Assembly (NCBI RefSeq): GCF_017302275.1
Contig: NZ_JAFLDR010000011.1
Location: forward strand, 62,001 to 126,000
Reading direction: 5' to 3'
Length of the DNA stretch: 64,000 bases
From: Sulfuritalea sp.
GTDB taxonomy: Bacteria; Pseudomonadota; Gammaproteobacteria; Burkholderiales; Rhodocyclaceae
Part shown: positions 1 to 4,131 of the stretch, piece by piece
Position numbering within the stretch: position 1 is the first letter of the stretch
Layout of the letters: the number at the start of each line of letters is the position of its first letter
Translations under genes and position numbers: made by a program
The notes under the pieces: model-generated
Database searches by the model: none
What the model was told of the DNA's origin: nothing
What the model saw: the letters and a program-made list of their open reading frames with translations, nothing else

Positions 1-1101
1 GGCGAAAGAACCGCCGCGTACGCTGCGATGGGTGTGGAAGTATGGTGCGGCGTACTCCGCGTAGGGGTCGGGGCTGAAGCCGGGATAGGGCTCGAAGGGG
101 CTGGCGGTCCATTCCCAGACCTGGGTACCCCAATCGAACCGGGTGGCGTTCAGCGCCGCGAATTCCCATTCAGCCTCGCTCGGCAGGCGCCGCCCGGCCC
201 AGCGGCACCATGCTTCGGCCTCGTGCGCGGTGAGGTGGATGACCGGTTGGGCCAGGGCGAGATCGACCCAGTTGCCGAAGCGGCGCTGCTGCCAGCCGCT
301 TTCGTGCCGGCGCCAGTAGCGCGGCGCGACTTGCCCGCTCGTCCCGAGCCAGGCACGGCCTGTGGCGGACCACCACTGCGGCTCGCGGTAGCCGCCCGCT
401 TCGACGAACGCGAGGAAATCCGAATTGGACGTCGGGCTGCTGGCGATGGCGAAGGATTCGACGCGAACCGGATGTGACCACTTTTCGTTGTCGAAGACGA
501 AGCCGCTTCCGTTTTCGGGGCTGCCCATGCCGAACTCGCCGCCTTCCAGTCCAATGTCGGCCACGGGCGGCAGGTCGCCGAGGCCGTCGACCGACGGCCA
601 CCCCAGCGTCTGGCGCGTGTAGCGGAAAGCTTCGTCATGCATGTCTTCATGGAACAGCGCGAGGCGGTGAAAGTAGAGCGCCGAATCGGTATCGGGAAGG
701 TTTTCCAGTGCCTCCAGGGCGCTGTCGAGCGTGTCGCGCAAATAGATTCTCGTGGCCTGCCAGTCAGGCAGGTCGAGTTGCCAGCGACTACCGTGGGCGA
801 CGCGACGCGAGTCGTACCAGCGGTCGGCATCAGGCAGGCAGGATTCGATCGGTGGCATTTCTCTGCCCCGATAGCGCTGGCACCAGTATTCCGTGAACCA
901 GGCGACGTGACCGAGTTCCCACAGCGGAGGATTGATCGTGTCGAGAAAGGGAACCCGCAGGGGGTGCGAGGCCGCACTGCCTTCGGCGCCGAACGGCCGC
1001 GACCATGCGGCCCATTCGTCAAGCAGGCGGATCGTATAATCGCGGGCATCCCGCAGCGCGGCAGCGAGGATCGCCTTTTCGGCAGTTCTGAGGTCATGCA
1101 T
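1..1101 (-). CDS. senA: Selenoneine synthase SenA (EgtB-like), 3' end outside the window
   Basis: The open frame has 367 codons without a stop and continues past the left edge. Residues about 10-165 look like a DinB/EgtB N-terminal domain. His65 (in WELGHVAWF) and the HX3HXE motif HEDMHDE (His151, His155, Glu157) match the three-histidine iron site of EgtB-type sulfoxide synthases. From about residue 180 an FGE/SUMF1-type domain follows (GGEFGMGS, RRLPSEAEWEFAA, SVRGGSFA). The family joins hercynine to a thiol or, for SenA, to a selenosugar. The call of SenA rather than EgtB rests on the neighbours senB, selD and egtD. Start is ATG at 1101; a GGAGG lies 12 nt upstream. The start codon overlaps that of senB on the other strand. 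Confidence 0.85.
   Translation of the reverse strand, partial: MHDLRTAEKAILAAALRDARDYTIRLLDEWAAWSRPFGAEGSAASHPLRVPFLDTINPPLWELGHVAWFTEYWCQRYRGREMPPIESCLPDADRWYDSRRVAHGSRWQLDLPDWQATRIYLRDTLDSALEALENLPDTDSALYFHRLALFHEDMHDEAFRYTRQTLGWPSVDGLGDLPPVADIGLEGGEFGMGSPENGSGFVFDNEKWSHPVRVESFAIASSPTSNSDFLAFVEAGGYREPQWWSATGRAWLGTSGQVAPRYWRRHESGWQQRRFGNWVDLALAQPVIHLTAHEAEAWCRWAGRRLPSEAEWEFAALNATRFDWGTQVWEWTASPFEPYPGFSPDPYAEYAAPYFHTHRSVRGGSFA
1035..1040 (+). promoter_or_regulatory. Candidate -10 element for senB inside senA
   Basis: A perfect TATAAT lies 60 bp upstream of the senB start, inside senA codons near residue 21. No good -35 box is visible. It is listed because senB has no intergenic space and any promoter must lie inside senA. 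This is inference from position only. Confidence 0.3.
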
Positions 1102-2074
1102 GGCTAAATCCGTCCTCCCTTCAATCAGTATCGTCAGCCCGGCCCTGGCCAAGGCCAACAACGGCAATTGGCACACCGCGAAGCGCTGGGCGCACTGCCT
1201 GGCTCGCAGCGCGCGGGCGCGCATCGAACTGGACTGGAGCGGTGCCGACGACAGCATGATGATTGCCCTCCATGCACGACGTTCCGCAGCGTCGATTGCC
1301 CGTTTCGCCGAAGTTTATCCGCAACGCCCCCTTGTTCTGGTGCTGACGGGAACGGACCTGTACCGCGACATCAGGACGGATCCGCAGGCGCAACGCTCGC
1401 TGAAGCTTGCTACCCGCCTCGTCGTGCTTCAGTCCGAGGGCATCCGCGAACTGGAGGCAAGCCTTGCCGCAAAGGCAACGGTGATTTACCAATCGGCGCG
1501 GCCCCTGATGCCGGGTCGGCGCAGCAAGCGCCATTTCGACCTGGTTCTGGTTGGGCACCAGCGGCCGGAAAAGGACCCGCTCACGGCCATGCGTGCGTTG
1601 CGCCTCGTACCCGATGACGTTCCGGTACGGCTGTTTCATGTCGGCGCCGCACTCGACTCCGAACTGGCTGCCCAGGTCGCAAAGCTCGGTACGGGCGACG
1701 GTCGCTACCACTGGCTTGGTGCCCTGTCCCAGTCGCAGACCCGCCAGCGCATCAAGCGCAGCCACCTCTTGTTGCTGCCGTCGCGCATGGAGGGCGGCGC
1801 CAACGTGTTGATCGAGGCCGTGACCAGCGGCGTGCCGGTGCTTGGCAGCGACATTTCCGGCAACCGGGGCATGCTCGGTACGGACTATCCTGGATGGTTT
1901 CCGGTAGGCGATGCAGCGCGACTGGCAGAGCTGATTGTCAGAGCGGCACGCGACCCGCGCTACTATTCGACCTTGTCCGCTCGCTGCGCCCAACGGGCTC
2001 CCCTATTTTCACCCGCCGGCGAGTGCGCCGCGGTTTGCAGGCTCCTCGACATGACAAGGCAATCGACACCATGA
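1100..2074 (+). CDS. senB: Selenosugar synthase SenB (TIGR04348-type glycosyltransferase)
   Basis: This 324-residue GT4-like protein begins ISIVSPALAKANNGNWHTA, the N-terminal pattern of TIGR04348 putative glycosyltransferases. The C-terminal nucleotide-sugar region has LLLPSRMEGGANVLIEA and GVPVLGSDISGNRG. In the selenoneine pathway SenB uses selenophosphate and a UDP-sugar to make a seleno-sugar, which SenA then uses. Start ATG 1100 has a GAGG at 1090-1093 with a 6-nt spacer, located inside the opposing senA gene. Its stop overlaps the selD start in ATGA (2071-2074), which suggests translational coupling. The assignment rests on sequence pattern plus the four-gene context. Confidence 0.85.
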   Translation: MAKSVLPSISIVSPALAKANNGNWHTAKRWAHCLARSARARIELDWSGADDSMMIALHARRSAASIARFAEVYPQRPLVLVLTGTDLYRDIRTDPQAQRSLKLATRLVVLQSEGIRELEASLAAKATVIYQSARPLMPGRRSKRHFDLVLVGHQRPEKDPLTAMRALRLVPDDVPVRLFHVGAALDSELAAQVAKLGTGDGRYHWLGALSQSQTRQRIKRSHLLLLPSRMEGGANVLIEAVTSGVPVLGSDISGNRGMLGTDYPGWFPVGDAARLAELIVRAARDPRYYSTLSARCAQRAPLFSPAGECAAVCRLLDMTRQSTP

Positions 2075-3135
2075 ATTCCCCACTTCAACCCGCCTCGGCG
2101 CTGCGCCTGACTTCGTTCAGCCATGGTGGCGGATGTGGCTGCAAGGTTGCTCCCGGACTGCTGTCCGAAATCCTGCGCGGTGTTCGTGGTTTTCCCGTGC
2201 CGAAGGAACTCATGGTCGGCATCGAAACGGCAGATGACGCCGCGGTTTATCGCCTCAACGACGAGCAGGCGCTGATCGCCACCACCGACTTCTTCATGCC
2301 CATCGTCGATGACCCCTATGACTTTGGCCGGATTGCCGCCACCAATGCGATCAGCGACGTGTATGCCATGGGCGGCACGCCGATCATGGCGCTGGCCCTG
2401 GTCGGGATGCCGATCGACAAGCTGCCCATCGAGGTGATAGGCAAGATACTTGAAGGCGGCGAAAGCGTTTGCGCCGCCGCCGGCATCCCCATCGCCGGCG
2501 GCCACACCATCGATTCGGTCGAGCCGATCTATGGCCTCGTGGTGATGGGCCTGGTGCATCCGGACAAGGTGAAGACCAATGCTGGAGCAAGAGCCGGCGA
2601 CGTACTGGTTCTGGGCAAACCGCTGGGCGTCGGTGTGATGTCGGCGGCCCTGAAAAAAGGCGCGCTGGGCGCCGACGGCTATGCAGCCATGATTGCCAGC
2701 ACCACCCGGCTCAACACGCCGGGGCGGCGGTTGGCGAATCTTGATGCCGTGCACGCGTTGACCGACATCACGGGCTTTGGCTTGCTCGGGCATTTGCTCG
2801 AGGTTTGTCGTGGGGCAGGCTTGTCGGCGATGCTTGATATGCGGTCGATCCCGATACTGGCGGATGTCGAGCGGCTGGCGACGGCGGGTTACATCACCGG
2901 TGCTTCGGCGCGCAACTGGGCGGCTTATGGTGGAGAGGTCGTTCTCGACCCGGCCATCGGCCAGATGCAGCGTGCCCTATTGACCGATCCCCAGACCAGC
3001 GGCGGCTTGCTGGTGGCCTGCGAGCCGGCAGCCGTCGACGACGTTCTTGCGGTGTTTCGATCCGAGGGCTTCGATTCGGCAGCGGTCGTAGGCCGCTTCG
3101 AATCCGGGTCACCGCAAGTGCGAGTGGCGGCCTGA
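2071..3135 (+). CDS. selD: Selenophosphate synthetase (selenide, water dikinase; SelD/SenC)
   Basis: The 354-residue protein makes selenophosphate from selenide and ATP. The N-terminal catalytic segment SHGGGCGCKVAPG matches the SelD pattern, with Cys rather than selenocysteine and the conserved Lys. DDAAVYRL, TTDFFMPIVDDPYDFGRIAA and the C-terminal DPQTSGGLLVA are also family signatures. ATG 2071 is chosen because it gives a standard SelD N-terminus and overlaps the senB stop; an in-frame extension to 1894 would read through senB. In this context it most likely feeds SenB and can be called senC. It may also serve selenoprotein or tRNA selenation; selA, selB and selU are not in the window. 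Confidence 0.93.
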   Translation: MNSPLQPASALRLTSFSHGGGCGCKVAPGLLSEILRGVRGFPVPKELMVGIETADDAAVYRLNDEQALIATTDFFMPIVDDPYDFGRIAATNAISDVYAMGGTPIMALALVGMPIDKLPIEVIGKILEGGESVCAAAGIPIAGGHTIDSVEPIYGLVVMGLVHPDKVKTNAGARAGDVLVLGKPLGVGVMSAALKKGALGADGYAAMIASTTRLNTPGRRLANLDAVHALTDITGFGLLGHLLEVCRGAGLSAMLDMRSIPILADVERLATAGYITGASARNWAAYGGEVVLDPAIGQMQRALLTDPQTSGGLLVACEPAAVDDVLAVFRSEGFDSAAVVGRFESGSPQVRVAA

Positions 3136-3141
3136 CCGAGT

Positions 3142-4131
3142 TCAGGCAGCCTTGCGAGCGAAAAAAAGAGCGAACCACCGCGGCGGGTCGGTCCAGACTT
3201 GAATGTCGGTGAATCCTGCACCCGTCAGCAGCGTCGCGAAGCCGTCCGGCGAATATTTCCACGAGTTTTCGGTGTGAACCCGCTCACCGTCGGCAAAGCT
3301 CCGCGAGCGTGATCCCTTCGCATCGGGCCAGCGCACAGTGAGAGCACGGCGGGCTTCCAGGTGCATTTCAATGCGGGCCGAGTCGATGTCGTAGAAGGCA
3401 ACGTGCCGCCAGTCGCCGACAGCGAAATTCGCATCGAGTCGCGCATTCACATGGCGCAGGAGGTTGCGGTTAAAGGCTGCGGTGACACCCAGCGGGTCGT
3501 CGTAGGCGGCATCAAGCAGGGCCTTGTCCTTGACCAGGTCGACGCCGATCAGCAAGCCGCCGCTGTGATCCATTCGAGCCGCAAGACCTTGCAGGAAGCG
3601 GCCGGCGTCGGGCGGGCTGAAGTTGCCGATGCTCGAGCCGGGATAAAAGAACATGCGACGCTCCAGCGGCAGGTCGTCTGGCAATTGCAGTTCGTCGGTG
3701 AAGTCGAGTCCAAGGCCGAGCATGTCGATCGCGGGCAACTCGCGTTTGAGGTGTTGCAGCGAGTCGCGCAGAAACTCCACCGAAATGTCGACCGCGACGT
3801 AACGCCGGGGAAGGATGCCGGCGTGAAACAGTTTGCCGGCCTTGGCGCAACTGCCGCAGCCCAGGTCGATCAGCGTGAAATCAGCGCCCAGCGCCTGCCG
3901 TATGGCCGGCAGGTGGTCGCGGAAAATTGCCGCCTCCGTGCGCGTTGGGTAGTACTCGGGCAACTCGGTAATCGCCTCGAACAGGCGAGAGCCAAGCGCG
4001 TCGTAGAAGAATTTCGGGGCAATGTGAGCCTGGGCCTGCAACAGGCCGGTGGCAAGTTCGTCGCGCAAGAGGGCATTCTGGCGCGGTGAATCCCAGTCGA
4101 GGATTTGCAGCAACTTGACGTCGTTCGGCAT
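3142..4131 (-). CDS. egtD: L-histidine N-alpha-methyltransferase EgtD
   Basis: This 329-residue SAM-dependent enzyme trimethylates histidine to hercynine, the shared precursor of ergothioneine and selenoneine. Family motifs are FYDALGSRLFEAITELPEYY, the SAM-binding loop IDLGCGSCAKAGKLF, FFYPGSSIGNF, and GVDLVKD followed by LDAAYDD, where the histidine substrate region lies. Length matches the usual 320-330. The gene runs toward selD with only 6 bp between stop codons, and its start lies 1 bp from the upstream methylase stop on the same strand. It completes the selenoneine pathway here, because SenA needs hercynine. Confidence 0.93.
   Translation of the reverse strand: MPNDVKLLQILDWDSPRQNALLRDELATGLLQAQAHIAPKFFYDALGSRLFEAITELPEYYPTRTEAAIFRDHLPAIRQALGADFTLIDLGCGSCAKAGKLFHAGILPRRYVAVDISVEFLRDSLQHLKRELPAIDMLGLGLDFTDELQLPDDLPLERRMFFYPGSSIGNFSPPDAGRFLQGLAARMDHSGGLLIGVDLVKDKALLDAAYDDPLGVTAAFNRNLLRHVNARLDANFAVGDWRHVAFYDIDSARIEMHLEARRALTVRWPDAKGSRSRSFADGERVHTENSWKYSPDGFATLLTGAGFTDIQVWTDPPRWFALFFARKAA

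Follow-up and report, generated by a model that had tools for sequence, protein, structure and literature searches.

The closest described counterpart of the locus reported here is the cluster senABC of Variovorax paradoxus DSM 30034 for selenoneine, a selenium-containing antioxidant, reportedly described by Kayrouz et al. in Nature in 2022. The DNA analysed, referred to throughout as the window, is a stretch of 64,000 nucleotides from contig NZ_JAFLDR010000011.1 of a Sulfuritalea sp. genome. Its positions 1-4131 carry the same three gene families, senA, senB and selD (senC), along with egtD and, judging from sequence, very probably direct the biosynthesis of selenoneine from hercynine that the cluster itself supplies. 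The locus is a clear further example of a pathway already published in 2022, one that is well supported and, in a Sulfuritalea-type bacterium, combined with a gene for making the precursor.

Comparison with described systems

The SenA and SenB proteins of V. paradoxus are the best matches of the window's proteins in the PDB, each pair being around 51% identical, although the window SenB has Glu157 and Asn235 where that of V. paradoxus (VpSenB) has Val157 and His235. In the window EgtD adjoins the sen genes; the comparison with V. paradoxus was made on senABC alone. The EgtB-EgtD ergothioneine pathway has EgtD and the EgtB fold in common with the locus, but unlike that pathway the window's genome contains no EgtB, EgtC or EgtE scoring over cut-off, while the SenA marker residue, SenB and SelD are all present. 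A further likeness is to OvsA of ovoselenol biosynthesis (PDB code 8ux5), an EgtB-like enzyme named a selenoxide synthase; it differs in sharing only 39% identity with the window SenA over aligned positions (135/344) and in lying outside its branch of the tree described below.

The V. paradoxus cluster is described in PMC9814287 and in part of PMC10702425, and the formation of selenophosphate by SenC and of a selenosugar by SenB, the iron-dependent coupling to hercynine by SenA and the elimination from the selenoxide are covered by PMC9814287 and by portions of PMC10702425, PMC10891094 and PMC10903977. By analogy with the V. paradoxus enzymes, and with gene identities assigned by sequence, we infer that this strain carries out the same reactions. 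EgtD would trimethylate histidine with S-adenosylmethionine to give hercynine, while SelD (SenC) would make selenophosphate from selenide and ATP. SenB would then transfer selenium from selenophosphate onto a UDP-sugar, with removal of phosphate, to yield a 1-selenosugar, which SenA, using iron and O2, would join to the imidazole of hercynine as a selenoxide; elimination of the sugar followed by reduction would leave selenoneine.

Table 1. Genes and sequence features of the sen locus (window coordinates; aa, amino acids).
Feature	Position	Strand	Basis
senA, selenoneine synthase (non-haem iron, EgtB-like)	1..1101	-	398 aa; NF041186 512 bits, cut-off 420
senB, selenosugar synthase (GT-B Se-glycosyltransferase)	1100..2074	+	324 aa; TIGR04348 412 bits, cut-off 300
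selD/senC, selenide water dikinase	2071..3135	+	354 aa; PRK00943 534 bits (cut-off 299), TIGR00476 432 bits (cut-off 125)
egtD, L-histidine N-alpha-methyltransferase (makes hercynine)	3142..4131	-	329 aa; TIGR03438 363 bits, cut-off 290.9
Overlapping start codons of senA and senB	1090..1118	.	Sequence read by eye; geometry compared in relatives
ATGA overlap, selD start and senB stop	2071..2074	+	Sequence

The initial annotation had placed senA, senB, selD/senC and egtD together at this location, with the supply of both hercynine and selenophosphate at hand. All four genes are indeed found there, on the strands implied and with egtD and selD adjacent, and all four proteins exceed the NCBI curated cut-offs by which the assignments were judged (Table 1). 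The senA gene crosses the left end of the window, its final 96 nucleotides, stop codon included, lying outside at G000:C3:61905-62000, and its frame is intact in the genome record. The ATGA overlap makes translational coupling of selD to senB likely, while selD and egtD are convergent with 6 nucleotides separating their stop codons. Measured against four Sulfuritalea-type loci, all four genes gave nonsynonymous rates (dN) of 0.08-0.24, synonymous rates (dS) of 0.83-1.53 and ratios (dN/dS) of 0.09-0.19, the last of these indicating purifying selection. Together the genes span around 4.2 kb, a handy size for selenoneine production in E. coli.

Among the papers searched, none pairs 'selenoneine' with 'Sulfuritalea' or with 'Rhodocyclaceae'. 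Similarly, no sen cluster linked to EgtD is described in the portions covered of PMC9814287, PMC10702425, PMC10891094, PMC10903977, PMC13188914 and PMC11929427.

SenA and its separation from EgtB

The best PDB matches of the window SenA are the V. paradoxus SenA structures (8ryz/8k5i, 356 bits), followed by OvsA (205 bits) and EgtB (4x8b, 160 bits). Its relationships were assessed through a quick tree of 76 rows comprising the window protein, 51 further sen-type proteins (out of 104, with one, L109, having no adjoining SenB), all 18 low-scoring EgtB-like proteins, three OvoA proteins and three references, four SenA fragments of less than 250 amino acids having been excluded. The window SenA falls within a 37-row branch in which 36 sen-type rows are joined by V. 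paradoxus SenA (Shimodaira-Hasegawa-like approximate likelihood ratio test, SH-aLRT, 97). All 18 EgtB-like rows constitute one separate branch (SH-aLRT 100) and OvoA forms another, so that grouping with the EgtB sulfur enzymes, one of the outcomes that the initial annotation had named as fatal to its reading, is not what the tree gives. OvsA, represented by a single reference on a long branch, lies outside the 37-row branch.

The residues around the metal point the same way. An alignment of 126 SenA, EgtB-like and OvoA rows with references has the three iron-binding histidines kept throughout, the window SenA having H65, H151 and H155 as ligands plus Met154. The position of EgtB Gln137 is occupied by Met in the window and in all 104 other sen-type rows, by Gln in 18/18 rows of the second, EgtB-like set and by Ile in 3/3 OvoA rows. 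For the role of Gln137 in EgtB, and for the residue numbers of the iron-binding histidines, we rely on what we take to be the accepted assignments.

These results bear on a reading of the locus as an ergothioneine cluster, in which an EgtB-like enzyme would place sulfur on hercynine and SelD would be an unrelated neighbour. SenA is, after all, an EgtB homologue (TIGR03440, 235 bits, or 226 bits in the genome-wide search) with an EgtD adjacent. Nevertheless, that score is under the 360-bit cut-off, the tree position and Met154 both set SenA apart, EgtC and EgtE have no match over cut-off in the genome, and SenB lies between SenA and SelD in an order repeated in relatives. We consider this reading extremely improbable, and rejected it on the basis of cut-offs, tree and marker residue.

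The three-histidine site and Tyr377 are described in part of PMC10903977. As a separate observation, none of the 18 EgtB-like proteins (L078, L083, L113-L117, L130, L135, L144, L155, L170, L176, L184, L187, L190, L192 and L195), most of which lie near an EgtD, has Tyr aligned to EgtB Tyr377, the position being occupied in 18/18 by Val, Leu or Ile.

SenB and residue 157

Rather than falling among unrelated glycosyltransferases, SenB belongs to the TIGR04348/SenB equivalog and finds its best PDB match in the crystallised V. paradoxus enzyme (8jjq/8fbx, 280 bits). Roles for the catalytic residues of VpSenB come from mutation tests in part of PMC10891094. Of the residues with mutations described there, the window SenB keeps all but the donor-contact positions 157 and 235: N20, T23, H58, R61, T83, T85, Q131, R155, K158, E231 and E239 (VpSenB numbering) are retained.

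At position 157 a novelty is present, in that Glu occupies this position in nearly all relatives examined and Val in the two crystallised enzymes. The codon lies at window positions 1568-1570, and Glu157 is found in 136/136 rows, window included, of an alignment of the SenB loci, some of these rows being near copies and 7 of 143 loci having been excluded because of a short match or a stop codon. Similarly, of the 30 rows that best match V. paradoxus SenB in 399 genomes of the same order, a set partly overlapping the first, 29 are readable at this residue, with Glu in 28 and Val in one, the thirtieth being gapped. As judged by alignment, the RsSenB structure 8k5u carries Val at this position, like VpSenB, so that both crystallised SenBs have a residue seldom seen in the relatives examined. 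Published substitutions of Val157 are to A, F, I, M, R and K, with E not among them in the portion covered of PMC10891094. The same source, again in part, calls the motif EGGAHV highly conserved in SenB; the window SenB reads EGGANV here, and of 131 rows 101 have Asn and 21 His at position 235. A divergent group of SenB proteins (L094-L098, family code f18) scores 173-229 bits, under the cut-off of 300, with His58 replaced by Asn in 3/5.

Some observations weigh against the selenoneine assignment. At 51% identity to their V. paradoxus counterparts (193/381 for SenA), both SenA and SenB could have shifted in donor or acceptor preference, and Glu157 and Asn235 of SenB depart from the characterised enzyme. 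The SenA tree was made without bootstrap and has 29 of 73 inner branches below 80, its OvsA and EgtB references sitting on long branches and being aligned only locally; moreover, the remaining 16 sen-type rows and OvsA join the 37-row branch in a wider branch of 54 rows (SH-aLRT 96). Finally, a sigma-70-like promoter sought between senA and senB, at window positions 800-1500, was not found.

Part of this would fit a different selenium product, for example one that is ovoselenol-like or an uncleaved compound of selenosugar and hercynine: among PDB families OvsA ranks second for SenA, and it lies inside the wider SenA branch, and SenB differs from the characterised enzyme at residues 157 and 235. 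Such a product is highly improbable given that OvsA is outside the branch holding both the window and V. paradoxus SenA, and that EgtD supplies hercynine, the substrate of SenA.

EgtD and the absence of ergothioneine partners

EgtD has its best PDB match in the EgtD structure 4pim (200 bits), and in the alignment to it a Glu and a Met are kept that we take to be responsible for selectivity towards histidine. It is the single EgtD in the genome at an E value of 1e-30. Searches of the whole genome for EgtB gave SenA itself as the best match (226 bits against the cut-off of 360), the next scoring 62 bits, while for EgtC and EgtE the best scores were 44 bits (cut-off 218.65) and 80.7 bits (cut-off 400), respectively. 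Hence the earlier statement that no EgtE- or EgtC-type gene is seen can be extended to the whole genome at curated cut-offs. Given this single EgtD and the lack of matches over cut-off to EgtB, EgtC or EgtE, no product of hercynine other than selenoneine can be predicted for the strain.

Among 63 SenB-bearing genomes, an EgtD is present in 48 of the 49 with a SenA/EgtB-like gene and in none of the 14 without one, counts that are uncorrected for kinship. A SenA/EgtB-like gene was here defined as one scoring over around 190 bits to NF041186, OvoA-level matches being excluded, and the 48 EgtD genes include one that scores below the cut-off where a contig ends (G030) and another with an in-frame stop (G167). 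EgtD therefore tracks hercynine-using enzymes. When match lists were compared by eye, no clear relation emerged between the presence of EgtD in the cluster and of EgtB elsewhere.

SelD and other uses of selenium

The cluster SelD is of the catalytic Cys type (SHGGGCGCK) and is the only stand-alone SelD found in the genome. In a tree using 51 of 86 rows it falls in a 30-row branch (support 97) that is entirely sen-linked and apart from the SelD proteins of five members of the window's family; 11 further sen-linked rows are outside the branch. Four of the five family members have matches to SelD and SelU no more than 160 nucleotides apart, whereas the window's genome has them on separate contigs. 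From this we infer, tentatively as regards direction, that the sen cluster brought a SelD along and that one linked to selU was lost.

The genome carries a group of SelA, SelB (TIGR00475, 437 bits against a cut-off of 242) and tRNA-Sec genes, as well as a SelU gene, which rules out selenoneine as its sole use of selenium. At an E value of 1e-30 two SelD proteins are present, the second being a 758-amino-acid fusion (L099:3308-5581, minus strand) whose N-terminal part is an oxidoreductase domain (TIGR03169, 512 bits), joined to a SelD domain that exceeds its cut-off (TIGR00476, 289 bits). The fusion keeps the Cys of GGCGAK and, with 479 bits to TIGR04369 ('fusion_not_SelD'), does not reach that family's cut-off of 700. 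According to part of PMC4561486, fusions of NADH-dehydrogenase-like domains with SelD are the commonest SelD fusions and are scattered in bacteria, their function being predicted to be kept. Since SelA, SelB, tRNA-Sec, SelU and the fused SelD are all in the genome, and the cluster SelD is the only stand-alone one, the latter is probably not exclusive to selenoneine and would feed the selenocysteine and selenouridine pathways too, alongside the fusion.

The same complement of selenium genes might suggest that the cluster SelD works chiefly for the selenocysteine and selenouridine pathways and owes its place beside senB to chance. We regard this as very unlikely in view of its ATGA coupling to senB and of its tree position, with 30 sen-linked rows and apart from five family SelD proteins of which four lie beside selU. 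A more elaborate version of the selenoneine assignment can be put forward as a doubtful but not negligible possibility. It would have SenB as the main, uncharacterised type (Glu157, mostly Asn235) with a UDP-sugar preference unlike that of the crystallised Val157 enzymes, the cluster SelD feeding selenoneine, selenocysteine and selenouridine, and EgtD serving selenoneine alone.

Overlapping starts of senA and senB

A second novelty is the overlap of the senA and senB start codons, the ATG of senA at 1101-1099 on the minus strand meeting that of senB at 1100-1102 on the plus strand head to head. Each gene consequently contains a sequence resembling a Shine-Dalgarno site for the other: GAGG at 1090-1093, inside senA, for senB, and GGAGG at 1118-1114 on the minus strand, inside senB and 12 nucleotides from the senA start, for senA. 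With starts picked by a simple nearest-start rule, overlaps of 2-8 bases are seen in seven of nine Sulfuritalea-type loci (the window, L118, L119, L121, L123, L124 and L132), while the starts are 4 bases apart in L122 and 13 in L120. The median gap over 96 divergent pairs is 82 bases.

Distribution and neighbourhoods in relatives

Of 200 genomes sampled from the window's order, 57 have a SenB that passes the cut-off. Within the window's family, V. paradoxus SenB finds a match at 1e-40 in three of 12 other listed members and none in the remaining nine. Neighbourhoods were examined in 143 loci, namely the window, 62 from relatives in the order and 80 named loci, these last being the best matches kept and giving the set a lean towards the window; the nearest among the best 80 are metagenome-assembled genomes named Sulfuritalea, Rhodocyclaceae, Rhodocyclales and, once, Burkholderiaceae, from which the term Sulfuritalea-type is taken for the host. 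SenA (over 150 bits) and SenB are both present in 106/143 loci, and are divergent neighbours in 99 of these (96 with start codons found, three without); of the seven that fail this rule, two have broken or cut SenA frames.

The window's arrangement, with senA and egtD on the minus strand and senB and selD between them on the plus strand, recurs in nine loci (L038, L052, L119, L121-L124, L151 and L169). Of these, the Sulfuritalea-type L119 and L121-L124 have the same four genes, order and strands, with protein identities to the window of 71-88% (L122 left out), and differ in the spacing of their senA and senB starts, which overlap by as many as 8 bases or stand up to 4 bases apart. EgtD was not seen in three of eight Sulfuritalea-type loci (L118, L120 and L132).

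The 14 of 63 SenB-bearing genomes having neither EgtD nor a SenA/EgtB-like gene (at the threshold given above) are a separate matter. SenB loci without SenA are L055 (G187, of the same family), L037, L040, L043, L044, L048, L053, L057, L063, L087, L094 and L096-L098. The idea of a new metabolite cluster around such SenB proteins gained no support when the neighbours listed for the 14 loci were compared and ten of them, from three loci, were assigned with Pfam. These ten proved to be ordinary genes (SDR/FabI-like, Opp-type ABC transporter, thymidylate synthase, DHFR, SpoU methylase, HDOD and pentapeptide).

Of three plasmid matches, two were examined, a senB from Hydrogenophaga (L228), with a divergent EgtB-family gene, and one from Methylorubrum populi (L229), with a divergent senA. 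For neither is a SelD annotated within around 6 kb on the upstream side or 4.5-6 kb on the downstream side. Arsenic, chromate and metal genes lie around one of the two, and one adjoins an IS6-type transposase.

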